DNA of 64,000 nucleotides from Ophiosphaerella korrae (Eukaryota > Ascomycota > Dothideomycetes > Pleosporales > Phaeosphaeriaceae), in contig JALNQF010000054.1 of NCBI GenBank assembly GCA_028456385.1, forward strand, positions 124,001-188,000, given 5' to 3'. The notes below the pieces were generated by a model. It searched no databases, had not been told where the DNA came from, and saw only the letters and a list, made by a program, of their open reading frames with translations. Position numbers and translations under genes: made by a program. Positions 17,886 through 61,586 of the stretch are shown here, one piece after another. Numbering within the stretch: the stretch's first letter is position 1; every line of letters starts with the position of its first letter.

Positions 17886-19184
17886 ATGCCTCTACTTTAT
17901 TTAGCAAATGAATTACTCTGCTGCATATCAGAAAAGATAGAATTAGAGAGAGATATTAACGCCTTTGCACAAACTAACCGCCGCCTTTACAGTCTACTAA
18001 ATACCTATCTCTACCGTCACAACATACGACAGTCTGGAAGCTCAGCGTTAGAATGGGCTGCCTTTTACGGCCAGGAGGCAACAGCTCAAAAGCTGCTAGG
18101 AGAAATAGCCGATGACCAAGTTACAAGTGACTGCTATGAGAGACCGCTGGGGGTGGCGGTGGAGTATGGGTATAAAGGGATAGTAAAGCTGCTGCTCGAC
18201 AAGTATGCCAACGTTAATGCGCAGAGTGGGCACTACGGCAATGCACTCTGCGTAGCTTCAGCAGGAGGTTACGAGCAAATTGTAAGGCTACTGCTCGACA
18301 ATGGCGCCGACGTCAACGCACAGGATACAAAGTACGGCAACGCACTCTGTGCGACTTTATATGCACGGCATGACCAAATAGCGAAGCTGCTGCTTGACAA
18401 GGGCGCCGACATCAACCCGCAGTATGGTAGATACGGCAACGGCAACGCACTCTACGCGGCTTCACATCAAGGCCGAGAGCAGATGGTGAGGATGCTGCTC
18501 AAAAAGGGCGCCGACGTCAATGCACTGTGTGGATGGCATGGCAACGCTCTCGGCGCAGCTTCATATAAAGGCCACGAGCAGATAGCGAGGCTGCTGCTCA
18601 GCAATGGCGCCGACGTCAACGGGCAGGGTGGACAGGACGGGACCGCACTCTGCGCAGCTTCAATTAGAGGCAACGAGCAGATTGTAAAGCTACTGCTCGA
18701 CAATGGCGCCAGCGTTAACGCGCACTGTGAGTACTACGGGACCCCACTCTGCGCAGCTTCAATTGGAGGCAACGAGAAGATTGTAAGGTTACTGCTCGAC
18801 AATGGCGCCAGCGTTAACGCTCAGAGTGGGCACTACGGTAACGCACTCTGCGTAGCTTCAGCAGGAGGTTACGAGCAAATTGTAAGGCTACTGCTCGACA
18901 ATGGCGCCGACGTCAACGCGCAGGTTGGGCGTTACGGTAACGCACTCCAGGCGGCCTCATATTACGGCTACGAGCGGACTGTAAGGCTACTGCTCGACAA
19001 GGGCGCCGACGTCAACGCGTAGGGTGGATAGTATGGTAGTGCGCTCATAGCAGCTTCATATCGAAACTTTAAGTCGATTGTAAGGCTGCTGCTCGATAAT
19101 GGCGCCAATATCAACGCGCTGAATGGAAGCTACGGGAGCGCGCTCCATGCGGCTTCATCTAGACACCACAAGGGCACAACCTAG
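17886..19184 (+). pseudogene. F-box-like/ankyrin-repeat protein truncated by in-frame TAG codons
   Basis: The intact frame (17886-19022) encodes 378 residues: an F-box-like start (LANELLCCISEKIE ... NRRLYSLLNTYLYRHN, residues 5-45), then a tandem array of about ten 33-34-residue ankyrin repeats with the pattern YGNAL..AS..G.E.IVRLLLDNGADVNAQ. Such proteins are usually substrate adaptors or STAND-associated recognition modules. The first stop, TAG at 19020-19022, falls where neighbouring repeats have CAG (NAQ). Three codons later TAG at 19029-19031 again replaces CAG. Beyond them the same frame continues through more than one further ankyrin unit to a TAG at 19182-19184. Both CAG-to-TAG changes are CpA-to-TpA transitions, as expected from RIP. 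A truncated but stable ankyrin protein could still be made, so pseudogene is my preferred but not the only reading. Confidence 0.75.
18223..18921 (+). repeat. Near-identical ankyrin units within the array
   Basis: The unit starting near 18223 and the unit starting near 18823 are about 100 bp long and differ at only about three bases, while most other units in the array differ much more from each other. This points to a recent internal duplication or gene conversion six units apart. Confidence 0.75.
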
Positions 19185-19913: not shown

Positions 19914-22760
19914 TCAAATGCGTTCTAGTGCAGGTCTTTGCGCCAAGACAACAAGCCTGCTTTGAAGCACCTGGCACTCTGAATGATTAGGTCCAATCAC
20001 ATTCTTATAGCCCTGCAGCGCCCGCTGGTACATCTCCTCCGCCTCATCAAGCCGTCCTAGGCCCACATAGAGAAGGCCCAAGTTGTTGACCGTGCCGAGT
20101 GTTGATGTGGACTCCGGTCCCCATGCCTTCTCTTTGCCCCGTAACGCCCGCTGGTACATTTTCTCTGCTTTTTGTCGATCTTCGTCTTGAAAAAAAAAAT
20201 AGTCCAGACTGTAATATATCCACTCTTGTATCATGCCCATAGCTGTCTCTTCTTCTTTAGCGAAGTTCAACTTTGTTAACCACCCACTGGCACATATAGC
20301 ATGACCTAGCAATCGCTTTCGCTTTCTCTAGAACCCCGCCTTTGATTCAGACGGAACATTCAATGCTACTATGCCCACTACAATGCAGCCAAGAACATGC
20401 CGCTCCTTGTCATCTACCAGCCGGCCGCACCATCGATGCAGCACCGCATGCATTGAATGGCTGTTACTGCCTTCTCTTGCATCCGCGGACGAGTAGCGCG
20501 ACAAAAGACCTATCGCCTCAGCGTACGCCAGCTCGTCCTCTACAACTTCAAGTAGCCACCTTGGAATGTCCATTTCTTCAAATAATCGTGATCCAGCGGC
20601 AACTAGCTCGTACCAAAGCTCGCCGTAATCCAAGAACCCCCACAGCTTAAGCAGCCACACCGCTTCCCTGCTCGGCTTCTGCACCTGCTCGTATGATATC
20701 GTCCACGTTGCCAACACATTGCGGTCACCGTACTCCTCAAGCGGGGACTGTCCTTGCCTTTGCATTAGCCGCTCCCAAGTACTGTCATAGTGCTCTATAT
20801 AGGCTGATGCAGACATGTTGGTCTCTTGCATGTATGAGCCAGCCTGAGTAAGAGCTAAAGGAAGCCCGCCGAGTCGGTCAAGTATGATGTCAGCGTCTAT
20901 TGAACGGAAATTAATTTTTACTTTTCTCATACAAGGGAGGCAACTGTTAATTCACCCTTAATCTCCCTTCTAGTATTGTTCTCTAGTATCGCTCTCGCCT
21001 GCTCTGTGTTGACCGTCCCTACTTTGACACCGGATCTGTGTCTCTGCGGCCTTGCCAGCCGGCTTATAATAAGAATAGATCCATGGTATATATCAGGGAG
21101 ATACGCCTCCATATCTTATGCCTGTGGGTCGTCTGCGTTGTGGAAGTCGCGGTCCACATTGTCAAAGATCAAGAGCCAATATCGGTTCGTTGGGAGAGAC
21201 AGCCATTGGAGACATTCGCGCACTGCCACATCAACATTAATGGCGGAATGCTTCAGCAGCTCTACACCATCCGCCGTCATCTCGGTACGTGGCAGCCTTC
21301 GCACCATATCCGCGAACGACTGTTTCAGACTTGCCTTTGATGACCCGTCCAGCCAGAGGACGCTGCTGAAACGGGAATAATGTTGCCGCGCGAACTCGAC
21401 CGCCAGCTGTGTCTTGCCTATGCCACCGAGGCCATAGAGAACAACGAGCTTCTGTCGACTAGTTGCGATTGCGTTATCTATAAGAAGCTGCTCTAGCTCC
21501 TGCATTTCTGCATCGCGTCGGACGAACTTGCCCATGATCGGCATGTCTTGAAAACGGAAGTTGATCTTGTGCTTGCCGTGGTCTGCCACAACAGTTAACC
21601 TCTATTTGTTATCGTCTAGGTATGGCTAGGACGCATAGTTACATTGAGATCGCGCCCATACTAGCCCAGGAGATTCATTGACTATGCCCTTAACTACTTC
21701 TGCCACCGTCTCAAAGTCTTCCTCCGTTGCCTTTCCAAATTTATTCATGTTGAAGTGGGCCCTCGAAAGCGAGTGCTTGCTCGTCGCGTCTGACAGGTCG
21801 AGACAGCCAGAGCTCTCGCTGACCACAAACCTCTGTATATGTAGCTAGCCTCGCAGGTCGTATAACACTCGCTTACACTTGCCGTCCGACTCTGCCCCCC
21901 TACGATCATCCCTACGTCGCTGGCCTTGAGCTCGTAGAAGCATGCAATCTGCGTCTTGCTCATCTGGCCCCTCATCTTCTTTAAGAAGCCATCCACCACA
22001 TCTTTTAGGTATGCGTTCTCCGGCTGCAGCACCTCGAGCGCAGTGGACTGCGCCTGATCCTCATGGTACTCGCGCCGCGCCGCCTCTAGCATCTCCATCT
22101 GGTTCATTCCGCCCGCGCCTCAAAACGGCGTACCAAAGAAGACTAGGCCGGTAGTCGATAGGGATACTCCAGGCCACGCGTCCTGGTACTATTCGGCTTC
22201 TAGTAGTGCCTGCGAAACTTAGCTACCAGCACGTTGCTGTCTAGTTCGCTTCACATCCTCACCTTAAGCACGACTAGCCCGCCGAAGCAGTGCGCTACAA
22301 ACAGTAATGGGCGGAACTCAACATCCTGGTAAGGTTAGCGGATGCACGACGCTTGTTAGATACGGTCAACACCTTTCTCTTCCGCTTCAAAGTTCTCAGT
22401 AGCCGTTCGGCCACCGTGGATACGTTCTGCTGCATCGCCTCTTTACCAAACCACTGCGACTCATATCCATATCGCATGATGCGCGCGTTCGGCGCCACTG
22501 CCCGCAGCATGCTTTCCTCCTCGAGCCAGTTGACCCACCGCGGGCTCTCCCTGGTGCCCACATTCCTGCACCAGCTGTCGTCGGGATGGGCGCCGAGGCC
22601 GTGGACTGCGACAATGCTAGGTAGCTCACTGTGAGTCTAAGCAAGTAGACATAGGATCTGAACGCACTCGATAATCTGGGCACCTTCTGCCCCTGCTGGT
22701 GCCTCGCGGAGCACCTTCAGCCTAATGTCGTCTTCGGTCACTAGCCGGCCTTAGCCCCGC
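19914..22760 (-). pseudogene. NLR-like gene relic: SesB-like hydrolase, NB-ARC, TPR
   Basis: Remains of a fungal NOD-like receptor, a class of STAND ATPases acting in heterokaryon incompatibility and other non-self responses. In coding order: an N-terminal alpha/beta-hydrolase (SesB/DUF676-like) with IVAVHGLGAHP near 22590, RIMRYGYESQWFG near 22460 and the nucleophile-elbow region AHCFGGLVVLK near 22270; a helical stretch at 21745-22107 (MSKTQIACFYELKASDVGMIV); the nucleotide-binding domain with Walker A GLGGIGKTQ, kinase-2 LLIFDNVD, GSILIISR and LGGLPLALTQAGSYM between 21589 and 20850; and a C-terminal TPR array with MYQRALRGKEKAWGPES near 20150. Lesions: frameshifts between the hydrolase pieces, an in-frame TAA at about 21113-21115, a frame change near 20930, and TAG at 20328-20330 where the family has Trp. 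The last is a CpA-to-TpA change on the opposite strand. Non-functional. Confidence 0.85.
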
Positions 22761-45456: not shown

Positions 45457-47746
45457 TTAGGGTACCGTTATTTGCCTTTTGCGCCACAAGAGTCCCACAG
45501 TAAGTAGTTGTACGGCTGTAAAAGCAACGAGAGTTCGAGTCTGAATTGCGTATCCATGGGCCAAAACTCGCTTTACCTCATGCTGCAGTTCATGTTTTAA
45601 GCCCTTGATTACGCTGGTATCCTGCAATACTTTTCTTAATGTCTCTGGGCTTAAAACATTTGCGAGCGCAGATTTCAAGTAGCTGTTCATGTAAGCTGAA
45701 GTAATAGCGACTCCGATCGCGCCTCCGAGGAAACGCAGCTGGACGATAGCTGCGGTTGCGACCGCTAGATATGTATGTCAGACTGGGTGTGTTATCTACG
45801 CTTCATTTACTTACCAATATCTCTCGGCCTTACAATGAATAGAGTACGAAGGACTAAAGTGGAAAAAGTGATGCCCACGCCAGCGCCGGTGAGGGCTTTA
45901 TAGCCTAAACCAGCAGATGGAAATTCAATCTCGGTCAGTGCCGACAGTAGAATGACGCCTACTAGATGGCAAGTAGGCATCTACGATCAGAGGGCAGACC
46001 AGCGGAACCCTAGATCTTGAAGTTGTAAGATTGAGGATGGCTGAGCACACAGGGGACACGACGGTGTAACGAAGCAGATAAATGCCTGCACCTAAGGGAC
46101 TCTTACCATCCAATGCTTGGGAGCGCTGTGGCAAATTGACAATGAGCGCATCGAATGGCATGCCGACCATGAAAATCATCCTAGAAGATTAGCGTGTCTA
46201 CACAAGAATCAATGACAGAGACGTGTATAGAAGCATCCGTATCCACACCATGCTGGAAAGGAAGTTCCAAGGGAAAACTGGTTCTGGTCTATTATATTTC
46301 GTCGCAAGCCGCCCCTACAAAAGAAATCTGACCCAGCCGCAGCCCGAGAGAACGAGAAGTGTAATTGTCTGACCCGCGCTCCACCCAAATCGAACACTTG
46401 CTTCGAGTAAGCCTGTAATTAACAACATTAATGCAGCAAGCAGAAGTGAGGCCGAGAAAATCAAGCTGGCCTAGATATTTCCAGCTCAACAGCTCGAAGA
46501 CGAGTATTTTTTCTTGATCCTGAAGTTTTCATGATACCAATAGCAAGTGCACCGAGTGTTATACTGAAATGAATGGTCAGCAATAAACTTTGTCCTTCTA
46601 GGGTAACCTACATAAACAGAAAAGTCCATCGTCAGGAACCATTATCGTTAACCAGCCCGCCAACAATAAGCCCTAGGGCATTAGCCACGGAGACAACTGC
46701 CACAGATCCACCGCTGTAAACTGCATATTTGGCTGGCGGCACCATCTCAAACGGCATAACCACTGCTAAAGAGTAGGTGCCCGCAGCACCAATACCTTGA
46801 AAGACGCGGTTTGTCACTCTAAACGGAGAATCAGGGACTTGTCCACGGAAACAAGTATCTTCATAACGTGGTTTACAAGCGAGCTGGTCACCCCAAAATA
46901 CAGCAAAAAGCTAGAAAAATATCTCTACAACGGCTTAATAATATTCTCTAAAAACTTAGGTATAAAGTCTAATATACTTATCCTACTGCTTATTTTAATA
47001 TTAAGGCGTACAATCTTCTAGTTATGAACAATTAAGATATTTAGAAATAGCTCTGTTTTAAGACCCTATACTCTATATCCTAATAACTACAAGACTATAT
47101 ACTCTAGCATTCTCCTAAGTACTAGAATAAACATACGAAAGTGTATATGTAAAGTTTTTGGATAATATTATCACGCCATTGTTGAAATATTTTTCTAGCT
47201 TTTTACTGTATTTTGAGGTGGCCAGCTCGCTTGTAAACCGCGTTAAATACGGCTGGGTCATCGTCTGTGAGGCACCACAGCCCCCTGATAAAAGGACAAA
47301 CATAATCATAGTCACAACAAAAATCACTTTACGGCCAATGAAGTCGCTTAACTTGGACCAGATAATCATGAAGCCTGCTGAATCTGTGAATATGCGTCCA
47401 GTCCCTGTAGGTGGGTATACTTGGCTGTGTACGTTATCAAATATCCAGTCACAATCCAGCTAGCCTGGGTAAAACCATGGTGGATGTTACTGATGGCGGC
47501 GAAACTAGTGCCTACGATTGATACTTCGATGTTCACGAGGAAGATTGCTAGCATGATTCTGTTGCTGTCAGCCTAACATCAAAACCAAGATTCAACATAC
47601 ACTGCAGTTGTAAACCATAACCGACATCCTGAAAGGCAATGTGGTTGCGATAAACTTCTAGAAGTATTTTCTTCCGGGTATACGTTTCGTTCCTGATTCA
47701 CTCCTTGATCGGATGTTTCAGAAGTACTTCGTTCGAGATTCGACAT
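45457..47746 (-). pseudogene. DHA2-type MFS multidrug/toxin efflux transporter, inactivated
   Basis: 14-TM drug:proton antiporter family. Coding order: start ATG 47746 (MSNLERSTSETSDQG), VNIEVSIVGTSFAAISN ... WIVTGYLITYT, WSKLSDFIGRKVIFVV ... GASQTMTQ, RVFQGIGAAGTYSLAVVMP, GSVAVVSVANALGLIVGGL, LGQLDFLGL, MVGMPFDALIVNLPQR ... KSPLGAGI, and the C-terminal NSYLKSALANVLSPETLRKVL ending at 45457. Several introns with good sites remain, e.g. GTAGGT ... TTTCAG around 46560-46610. Lesions: TGA at 46632-46634 and TAG at 46315-46317, both where the family has Trp, and an unclear donor near 47410. The TAG is a RIP-type change; the TGA is a G-to-A in CpC context. A 378-bp TIR element sits inside one intron, so the element alone need not have killed the gene. 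Confidence 0.85.
46866..47243. mobile_element. 378-bp TIR element (MITE, Tc1/mariner-like TA target) in an MFS intron
   Basis: Long imperfect terminal inverted repeats of about 90 bp: the left end reads ACGTGGTTTACAAGCGAGCT, and the reverse complement of the right end ACGCGGTTTACAAGCGAGCT. The similarity continues through CAAAATACAG and AAAAAGCTAGAAAAATAT to about 46955 and 47160. A TA dinucleotide flanks both ends (46864-46865 and 47244-47245), the hallmark of Tc1/mariner-type insertion. The interior of about 200 bp is AT-rich and non-coding. Removing the element and one TA restores a 52-bp intron with GTATTTATG donor and CCGTTTAG acceptor, joining ...ASQTMTQ to VTNRVFQGIG in frame. So it landed just after the 5' splice site. 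Confidence 0.85.
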
Positions 47747-57761: not shown

Positions 57762-58666
57762 GATTGCAATGAACAGAAATGGGTTGATATGGAGAGTACT
57801 GCCGTTGGGAGCTGAAGTTGTCTTTATAGTCAAAAACGCCTGCGCTATAACCACTCAAGGAGTTTTTACATGGACTGACAAGCGTCCGCATCCTAGAATT
57901 GTAGCTCGTGGCGCGATAAACGATCTAGGGGGATCGGACCATCGCATTCCTCAACGATGAGATTTGTTCTGTTCCTGCACCTACCTATCTAGGTACTAGT
58001 CCTGCTCATTTTCACGTGGCGAAGGGCTTGGACTAGCACAGCAACTGAACGTCTTGAATGAAAATTCTGGCCCAATGTTGATCTGTTTTGACAAACAATA
58101 GGCGACGCTGTGATGAGTAGTAGCTGTAGGCACAAATGCAAAGTGTATGGAGTGGGCGGCCATTCGGAATCCAGAAATCCGCTCTCCGAGTATTCCCATG
58201 CTATGCAGGTAATGTAGATAGACTCATCGCTTCAAAGTCATGGAGCGTCGTCGGCCAGTGCTAAGAAGGTAGCAATTTTCCTAATTATCAACCGTAATCT
58301 ATATTCGATGTACTTAGCACTTTTATACAGTCGTAAAAATGGACTTACTGTATATTCCATTTTCATTGGTGTAATATTCTACCTTTTCCATTCCTAACAC
58401 CAGAAATAATGAGAAGAGATAGGATACCACGGCGAGGTACAATTTAGGCATGTAGAACGAAAGAAGTTTATTCAGCTAGGCTTGCACTCCATCAACCAAA
58501 TATCAGGAAATTACACACTTGATCTCTAACAACTAAATTTTCCATTTAAATTTACTCCATTATGATCGGCCAATGAGACAAGATTACTCATCTCCTAGTT
58601 ATGGAGCTTCAAATACACACACTTATCTCCACGAATTCTAAATAGGGCCAGATCATTGATTTACCA
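57762..58666. other. Intergenic region between P450 relic and deaminase-like gene
   Basis: No supported gene. It holds the upstream region of the dead P450 and the 3' flank of the deaminase-like gene. Confidence 0.4.
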
Positions 58667-60605
58667 TCAGCGAGGAGACTTGCCGCTCTGGTCGGGTATG
58701 ACAAAGATGTCATGGTCATAATCTTGCTTCCCCAGCACAACATCGAACAATGGAAGTAGTTGTTGGCAATTTTTACACGGAACCCTGAGTACACTTAATT
58801 TAGATGCTTGACCGAGACTCGAACTATCGAAAAGATCCTTGAATGCAGCTGAGTTTCCAATCTGTGGGACTGCGAGGGAAATGCCCCGCAGTTTGCTCAT
58901 GTTCGCATTGGCGTAGTAACGAGGTCTTAAGCTCAGTCATCAGCATTCGCATTTAAAAGGACAGTGTGTATATTGGATAGAGAGAGTGGAAGTACATACA
59001 TGAGAGATGCTACACAATACGTTTCAGCACATCTTCCGAACGGTGTTCCCGGCTTACTCCCAGGTTGCTCGAACCTCGCCCATACATTATCTAGTTTAAT
59101 CTTTAAATCAGCTTGCATTACCGTGAGAAATGGAGCAAGCGCAGCCCTGAGACTATCTTCAGGGAGCTTTGGGCTCTGCTCTGAGTTATATGCTTTGTCA
59201 ACGAGCTTGAAAACACGTGGTTGAAGATATTTCACAAGCACGTCGGTGAAGGCATTCAAGTCATAGCTACCGGCAGCTCGTTGATGCAAAAGCTGAACCA
59301 CTGACTCTCGAATTGGACGCCAGAGTTTGGGATAGCCTTTGATCTTGTCCAATGGGATAGTGACAAACATCGGTATTTGACTTGGATTCCCGGCAACTTG
59401 AAGAATTGCTGCTTGCTGAATGGGTGTGAGCATGAGTTTTGTTGCAGCATTGCTTTCGTCCATCAATGTAAGCTCACGCAAAGACGTCCATAAATTTTCT
59501 ACCAGCGAGTCTTCATCTTTAGGCGAGATTAGAGGAAGTGTTGTACCTGACCAATCGGTTAATTGGTCTCGGAGGATGAAGTCGTGTTTGTATCTATCCG
59601 ACGTTCTGAGGGCATTGAATGCTTCTGCTTGTGTTGGAAAACTGGCCGAGCAAACGCGGGCTGGAGTACTGCCGTAGAAGTATCGAATCGGCTCGTTGGC
59701 TTCCGCATACATGACGCAACTCGTGACTGGAACGTCTCCTGCGGTATCTATAATGATACCATTGTCCCCACGAGCTACAACAAATGCCAGATAAAGACAT
59801 CGAGAGTAGAGCAAACCTAGTGGCAGGTAATAATTCTGCCATGTAGGATTGTTGGAAGTGGGAATCGCAACAGAGAAGATGTATCCTAATGCTGTGGCGC
59901 CGTCGAGAATCTTGAATTCGAGTTTCTCGGGAACGCCGTCCCCAAATTTCACTGGCGTGAGAATAGGAACTATACCCGCCTCTAATTCAGTTTTGATTCG
60001 TATAGCACTACGCCAGTTATTTTGAAATCTTTCAGGATTATTAGCTTATGATCGAGGTGTTTTGCTCAAGCTGTAGCGGGCCCATGTTGCTTATTAATGA
60101 TACCTTTACGCACCATAAATGAAGGTGGTTTACTAACAACACAAAATCTCAGATAGTAATTTTCTGTCTACTCGTTTCCAAACAAGTAGCAGAAGTAGAA
60201 GATTTGTTTAATTAAAATTCGTTCACTTACGGGAGGGGAAAGAAGTCTTCCAATAACCTTTTCACATGTGAAGCGTACTCCGCTCGAATGCCAGTATTTG
60301 GCCCGACGTCTGCACGAAGCTTCTCAACCCAGTCATAAAACTGAAAGTAATTATGTTAGTGACAATGTGATATAAAATTGATGCATTAAAGATATCAAGG
60401 CGTATCTGTGCAACTCACGCATAGCAGTGCTCAACTGGGCACAGGTGCCTCGACTAGTTGTGGATGATAATGTACTTACCCTGGCACAATCTGCATATGT
60501 ATCATCAGAACCATCATTTTTCAGGGTCTTCACCATGAAAGAGGCATCTAACTTGGCGGTTCCTGCAAAAGCTGAGAAGAGGGTTGGGCTCCAGTCGAGA
60601 ACCAT
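58667..60605 (-). CDS. Hypothetical protein with deaminase-like CAE ... PCxxC C-terminus
   Basis: Four-exon model with consistent phases, 507 residues: 60605-60480, 60340-60231, 60028-59000, 58925-58667. Introns: 60341-60479 (139 bp), 60029-60230 (202 bp, long for this genome, so a missed small exon is possible) and 58926-58999 (74 bp). The N-terminal 350 residues are helical and unrecognised (FYDWVEKLRADVGPNTGIRA, LWTSLRELTLMDESNAATKL, LDKIKGYPKLWRPIRESVVQ). The C-terminus carries PGTPFGRCAETYCVASL (Cys412-Ala-Glu414) and, 57 residues on, LRVPCKNCQQLL (Cys472, Cys475). A C/H-A-E plus P-C-x-x-C pair is the zinc-binding and proton-shuttle signature of the cytidine deaminase-like superfamily; C-A-E variants are known in several microbial nucleotide/nucleic-acid deaminase families. 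Substrate unknown. No signal peptide. The intact frame amid dead neighbours suggests selection. Confidence 0.65.
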
Positions 60606-61586
60606 CGTGGAAAGTCAGAGGTCTTTGGCAGAATCTTTTGCGCTGGTTCTAATGCGATATTTTTGACGAGGAAAAAATCCAGTCAGTTGACATTTACTAA
60701 ACATTGGGGCTCTGAGGGGACGAGTTCACTTAACGAGCGAATTTAACGGCAGGGTTCGCTGCGTGCCTTTGATGCAGGCGTAAAATGTCCAACCTAGTAA
60801 AATCCACCTTGCTCCTGCGTCTTAATCTCTAGCTCATCTCTCATTCTTGTCTTCTAATCCTGTCTAGGCGTCTCATTACTGTTGAAATTTTCGAGTGGCC
60901 GAGAGTCCGTAGGTAGCTCGTATAGTAGCGCCAATATTTGCGAGTGTGCGGCTGGGATGACTAGCACAGCAACTAGGTACAGATAGGGTTGCGTCTAGTG
61001 TGTCTTTGGAAGAGTGCTTGATACACCAGCGGGGAATGCTGTGTATGGGCTGGCTGAGAGTCTGTTCAGGATTTTGCCTCGCCTCCCTAGGTATTTTAGG
61101 TACGGTACGTGCAGTCCACCAGGGTCTTACTTTTGCATGAGTAGCTTCACTTGGCGAATATTCATTTGTTCATAGCGGTGATGACCAGGGTGAAGCAGCA
61201 TGCATAGGCATTTCACACGCAAAGAGTTGCATGAGGTCTCAGTAGTCGGCACGCTGGGCTAGGTGCGGCGGTGTGCGGTTGTGTGCGGTTGTGTGCGGTT
61301 GTGTGGCGACCAGTGTCGGCCGCCCACTTTCGCTCACGGGACGGCGCGCACTGTGGAGGCGGAACCCAGCTAGCTGCGAGGTACGCCATTTTTGCCAAGC
61401 CCTCCGCTAAGCCCAGCGACCACCATTGTCCGAATACGAAAGCGCCAGCCACAGGAAGACGTTTTCGTAACTTGTTTCCTTCCCCATTTTGAAGTTAGCA
61501 TTCCGCATCCTGTTCTGAGCCCACGAGATATTCCAACATCAAGCTTCCTATTCAACTTCTCGAGCCAAATCGCCCAAGACACAATT
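60606..61586. other. Intergenic region between divergent genes
   Basis: Upstream region shared by the minus-strand deaminase-like gene and the plus-strand small gene at 61587. It contains a 10-bp minisatellite at 61271-61305. No supported coding sequence. Confidence 0.45.
61271..61305. repeat. 10-bp minisatellite (GTGTGCGGTT)n
   Basis: Three full tandem copies of GTGTGCGGTT plus a partial fourth. Confidence 0.9.

Follow-up and report, generated by a model that had tools for sequence, protein, structure and literature searches.

Gene structure and genomic setting

The window, by which we mean the whole stretch of 64,000 nucleotides that was analysed, carries on its minus strand, from position 60605 to 58667, a gene whose four exons splice into an intact protein of 507 residues (Table 1). 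A sequence-only reading made earlier had described this frame as intact, and the four exons, the last of which holds the stop codon, indeed yield exactly 507 amino acids. The same reading had proposed that removal of a 74-bp last intron unites a CAE motif with a short exon carrying PCKNC. Both the intron and its consequence are borne out by our GT-AG model, in which the motifs fall at C412-A-E414 and P471-C-K-N-C475, with 57 residues from E414 to P471 and 60 from C412 to C472, and in which P0001, a 511-residue hypothetical protein from Phaeosphaeriaceae sp. PMI808, aligns across the last junction without a gap. By eye, all three introns contain a plausible branch point. Use of a second possible acceptor in intron 3, 6 nt upstream, would give a protein of 509 residues; judged from sequence, the 507-residue form is to be preferred, since only in that form is the last junction free of gaps against P0001. 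The two proteins are 73% identical over their full length, which implies purifying selection. Throughout the 63.0-Mb assembly of 974 contigs, the only matches to the protein (E up to 10) were the gene's own four exons, and the gene is therefore single copy at that sensitivity.

Table 1. Exons, introns and flanking repeat of the gene, in window positions
Feature	Position	Strand	Remarks
Exon 1 (residues 1-42)	60480..60605	-	Start codon at 60605; start and junction agree with P0001
Intron 1 (139 bp, GT-AG)	60341..60479	-	
Exon 2	60231..60340	-	No gap against P0001 at either junction
Intron 2 (202 bp, GT-AG)	60029..60230	-	
Exon 3	59000..60028	-	Conserved alpha/beta module (about residues 88-200), variable helices (206-404), GRCAET (410-415)
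Intron 3 (74 bp, phase 2, GT-AG)	58926..58999	-	Position probably shared across the family
Exon 4	58667..58925	-	PCKNC (471-475) and stop codon
16-bp perfect direct repeat, left copy	58031..58046	+	Possible insertion footprint
16-bp perfect direct repeat, right copy	60959..60974	+	Brackets the gene with the left copy

The two copies of the 16-bp repeat lie 2,928 bp apart and are the only exact occurrences of this sequence in the 63-Mb assembly. Exact direct-repeat pairs of at least 16 bp, spaced by 0.2-5 kb, number 11 in the window; ten belong to an array at 18.2-19.0 kb and the remaining one is the pair that flanks the gene. Comparable pairs arose in 40 Markov controls at 0.025 per 64 kb, with a maximum of 1. 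An insertion or a repair event may lie behind the repeat.

A conserved fungal family

Searching about 5.8 billion proteins, and scoring the 7,999 candidates with the most shared words, we found 14 relatives among the candidates scored (E 9e-247 to 1.4e-4). A profile search added no further relatives among the 12 matches listed, and residues 375-525 of P0003 used as query gave three matches, one of which (P0015) was new. The family set used below comprises the window protein and these 15 relatives (n = 16). Named sources are Phaeosphaeriaceae PMI808, Nemania, Xylaria, Xylariaceae FL0594, Xylariales PMI_506 and two Trichoderma, and the annotations, where named, read hypothetical or uncharacterized. 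The literature that we searched gave no description of the family, as the sequence-only reading had supposed, with an earlier mention possible in Iyer 2011 (10.1093/nar/gkr691). We conclude that the gene family is real, intact and conserved, and apparently undescribed.

Both halves of the superfamily signature, [HC]xE and a downstream PCxxC, are found throughout this set wherever the protein extends to their position, which upholds the motif pair on which the earlier reading was built. GRCAET is present in 16/16 members (15/15 aligned rows and P0015), and PCxxC in all six members that reach its region, namely the window protein, P0001, P0002, P0003, P0007 and P0015. The distance from first cysteine to first cysteine is 60 residues in five of these six full-length members and 68 in the other. 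When the window protein was shuffled 200,000 times, [HC]xE followed 20-90 residues on by PCxxC arose in 0.0365% (0.000365) of the shuffles; the motif pair is beyond chance. The ten members left comprise eight that stop before PCxxC and two Trichoderma models that pass CAE without PCxxC. The eight shortened proteins (P0004, P0005, P0006, P0008 and P0011-P0014; 8/16) terminate at the counterpart of the codon that the last, phase-2 intron of the window gene splits, and from these protein ends the position of that intron appears to be conserved across the family; such ends would fit an ORF caller that had run into a GTAAGT-type donor. The joined last exon is present in five relatives, P0001, P0002, P0003, P0007 and P0015. 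For P0009 and P0010, from Trichoderma asperellum and T. atroviride, the annotation may omit the last exon.

Of the eight cysteines in the window protein, four (C183, C412, C472 and C475) are invariant across the six full-length members, as is one of its 19 glutamates (E414 alone); none of its four histidines and none of its 28 lysines is. Mean pairwise identity in the same six proteins is 0.75 for residues 121-162, 0.56 for 405-430, 0.66 for 469-482 and 0.28 for 206-404, so that a variable, predicted helical stretch parts the conserved blocks. Conservation within the family is highest in residues 121-162, which lie in the exon 3 part of the N-terminal module and had no Pfam match in the scans made.

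Relationship to known deaminases

Of all the Pfam matches in the family, the best is to the YwqJ-like deaminases (PF14431, profile length 138), in keeping with the deaminase reading proposed earlier, yet it lies below the curated cut-off of 25.9 bits. The match is that of P0003, whose residues 380-504 align to profile positions 27-138 (E 2.3e-4, 21.8 bits) and whose C-terminal 139 residues align to positions 44-138 (E 4.4e-5, 24.1 bits); with 24.1 bits as its best score, P0003 falls outside PF14431 by Pfam's rule. Scanned as whole proteins at E up to 1, 15/16 members did not match PF14431; of six C-terminal pieces, that of P0003 was the one to match. PF14431 was also the only Pfam match of a majority consensus of the six members (E 0.15, over the PCxxC part), a value to be read beside one reversed and five shuffled controls, three of which matched unrelated families (E 0.048, 0.14 and 0.11) and three nothing. 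The sole Pfam match of the window protein, IalB at E 0.099, was below threshold, and IalB matches in a few members (E 0.039-0.14) were taken as chance. For the family sequences scanned, no match was listed to PF14441 (OTT_1508-like deaminase) or to the cytidine deaminase Pfam families. NCBIfam gave no match for the four proteins scanned, PHROGs gave two weak ones (E 0.21 and 0.24), and a PDB sequence search gave none for the window protein or A5; a PDB match for A6 (E 1.8) was weak and was set aside as irrelevant.

Direct comparison was made with YwqJ domains from Bacilli, the search for which gave 0/5, 8/44, the same eight in 80, 2/200 above the cut-off (a third match in the 200-genome set lay below it) and 2/193 genomes. 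In the 12 domains used, whose extraction required [HC]AE, a hairpin runs from about 57 to about 36 residues before GSHAE, and GSHAE is followed by a likely strand and then by C[PS]HC. Aligned to these domains with hhalign, the C-terminal alignment of the family reached a probability of 1.3% with the wrong motifs paired, and one of 30 column-permuted controls outscored it; HMM searches run both ways raised neither the YwqJ domains nor the fungal proteins over background. As direct profile comparisons with these narrow Bacilli sets failed, it is the broad Pfam model, together with the motifs and the layout in the structure models, that speaks for the proposed kinship. Among 84,980 prokaryote species, the pattern [FY]GRCAETY occurred in 13 stretches, none of them a relative by tblastn (E 1e-3), and tblastn against 72,556 plasmids yielded no relative, nor did a Bacilli YwqJ domain used as query.

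With YwqJ-like deaminases (in Bacillus YwqJ, the C-terminal domain of an LXG toxin) the fungal family has a predicted layout in common, of a CAE or HAE helix, a strand and a CxxC helix. It differs in having cysteine where 12/12 Bacilli domains have histidine (HAE), in containing introns, in scoring under the curated cut-off, and in the distance from hairpin to catalytic helix, which is about 36 residues in YwqJ and would be about 210-230 in the fungal proteins. The combination of CAE and PCxxC with three cysteine ligands is also that of cytidine and blasticidin S deaminases, from which the family is set apart by a long N-terminal region, by the lack of a listed profile match and by a spacing of 60-68 residues between the first cysteines of the two motifs, a distance of about 33 residues in those enzymes.

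Predicted structure

AlphaFold2 models of P0001 (pTM 0.73) and P0003 (pTM 0.67) are broadly alike in secondary structure. Each has a mixture of helices and strands between about 88 and 165, a mostly helical part at about 205-410 and a low-confidence C-terminus (block pLDDT about 31-74) in which a CAE helix, a strand and a PCxxC helix follow one another, and a hairpin is predicted at 181-187/195-199 in P0001 and at 176-182/192-196 in P0003. The order of the predicted elements would be that of a deaminase, provided that the hairpin belongs to it. That the N-terminus is merely a long helical partner or targeting region, as had been suggested, is not what the models indicate: residues of about 88-200 are predicted to form an alpha/beta module that includes 121-162, and only about 206-404 are variable helices. 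Foldseek and VIA-align gave no significant structure and no weighty deaminase match among the matches listed, the C-terminal models being weak.

In the models, a hairpin of the YwqJ type, adjacent to the motif helix, is absent, and some 210-230 residues separate the end of the candidate hairpin from CAE. We infer that the conserved SCVMY...RYFYGS hairpin (about 182-199) corresponds to the strand hairpin that normally stands shortly before the catalytic helix, and that the variable helical insert may separate it from the CAE helix. A hairpin so remote would account for the start of the Pfam match past the hairpin positions of the profile (at 27 or 44). In sequence likeness to the YwqJ hairpin, the hairpin window ranked fifth among separate windows, and the idea of a split domain is thus one of secondary structure and conservation only. 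On such an arrangement, the strand hairpin and helix 1 would come from the N-terminal module (about 88-200). A helical insert of 200 residues that changes fast would take the place of the short loop of YwqJ and might gate the active site or aim it, and the CAE and PCxxC helices would come from the last exon together with the end of exon 3.

The three cysteines of the motifs could instead bind zinc for structure alone, as a folding knuckle at the C-terminus of a non-enzymatic scaffold with its conserved core at 121-162. Conservation does peak there, outside the motif region, the fold search was uninformative, and all members but one are without a Pfam deaminase match; against this, a structural site has no need of E414, the sole invariant glutamate, and the GRCAET...PCxxC layout suits an active deaminase, as does the PF14431 match of P0003. 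We regard a purely structural role as unlikely.

Proposed function

Rather than a scaffold, the protein is probably a diverged, zinc-dependent and intracellular deaminase. Within the cytidine-deaminase-like superfamily it would stand closest to the YwqJ branch, as part of an undescribed fungal family; the intracellular location is suggested by a start that, by eye, is not signal-like. Cys412, Cys472 and Cys475 would be the zinc ligands of an all-cysteine site, as in cytidine deaminase, and Glu414 would act as proton shuttle, with a zinc-bound hydroxide displacing the exocyclic amino group of the substrate. That substrate may be RNA or DNA, or else a small nucleotide. The small nucleotide is considered because induction of YwqJ in B. 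subtilis is reported as having a strong effect on growth and leaving chromosome and rRNA unaffected, with small molecules as its possible target (PMC8321402).

The same suggestion for YwqJ would also fit an enzyme that deaminates free nucleosides or nucleotides in salvage or detoxification and has acquired extra domains, a reading that overlaps with the one preferred here and departs from it in substrate and role. All-cysteine ligands and the PCxxCQxL context are like those of cytidine deaminases, but the cytidine deaminase Pfam families are without a match in the sequences scanned, and the few fungi among the matches are unlike what is seen in core metabolism. Such a salvage or detoxifying enzyme seems to us rather improbable.

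A fungal precedent is OLD (PF14441; OLD-ZAO in Neurospora), which also carries a pair of deaminase motifs (PMC12754623). OLD is reported to edit RNA in antiviral defence: the motif pair of these fungal deaminases is HxE...CxxC, and the adenosines that they edit are in the mRNA of a zinc-finger gene next to their own (PMC12754623). As a special case of the deaminase reading, the present protein might be an editor of an adjacent transcript during virus infection, comparable with the OTT_1508-type OLD of Neurospora. The family has CxE, however, not HxE, and none of the sequences scanned had PF14441 listed among its matches. When the unspliced frames of the window were scanned with a loose pattern, this picked out ten C2H2-like and two CPF-like stretches, none of which, by eye, was a convincing zinc-finger array, and a pair resembling OLD-ZAO was set aside when no zinc-finger neighbour was seen (in unspliced frames, with 3.4 kb on the far side). 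We consider this special case very unlikely. The one weak PF14441 piece at another place in the genome (25.3 bits against a cut-off of 27) seems to lie in a frame of 45 codons, with a longer frame opposite, and looks spurious.

With no OLD-like zinc-finger neighbour seen in the unspliced frames scanned and no OTT_1508 match listed, our preferred reading is an intracellular, conflict-type deaminase, directed against viruses or non-self. This role is the least certain element of our proposal and draws on three features: the few, distantly related fungi among the matches found, the single copy in this genome and the likeness to a toxin domain of bacteria. Fungi are said to have received at least 13 toxin domains, and for a subset of the deaminases so acquired a part in intraspecific conflict, in defence against selfish elements or in heteroincompatibility has been proposed (PMC3482391). 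Bolder is the notion that the protein is the founder of a new family with a split catalytic domain, carried by a mobile unit of 2.9 kb that left the 16-bp repeat behind and serving in conflict with viruses or non-self; we offer this fuller account tentatively and think it doubtful as a whole.

Several eukaryotic editing enzymes are believed to owe their deaminase fold to bacterial toxin systems (PMC13327615). A further intact and conserved fungal family, unnamed in the sources consulted, with another set of zinc ligands and a possibly interrupted catalytic domain would broaden the range of these enzymes and, if it acts on nucleic acid, may supply new base-editing chemistry.

Other features of the window

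At 46864-47245 lies an element with inverted repeats of 94 nt that are 88% complementary; 66 matching pieces of the genome were listed for it (itself and both strands counted), and by eye it sits inside broken transporter-like frames at about 45.5-47.7 kb. Between 51520 and 54236, a frame with a Clr5 domain is followed by an open frame of 508 codons. The stops between the two may be introns and not damage, and an earlier tally of damaged neighbouring genes may for that reason be too high. An NB-ARC/AAA_16 fragment at 21119-21601 on the minus strand possibly belongs to a fungal gene of the NLR type or to its remnant. The array of exact repeats at 18222-19002 falls in an open frame of 384 codons, and several of its repeats are spaced by 99 bp, or 33 codons, as long as one ankyrin repeat; the array may encode a fast-changing repeat protein.
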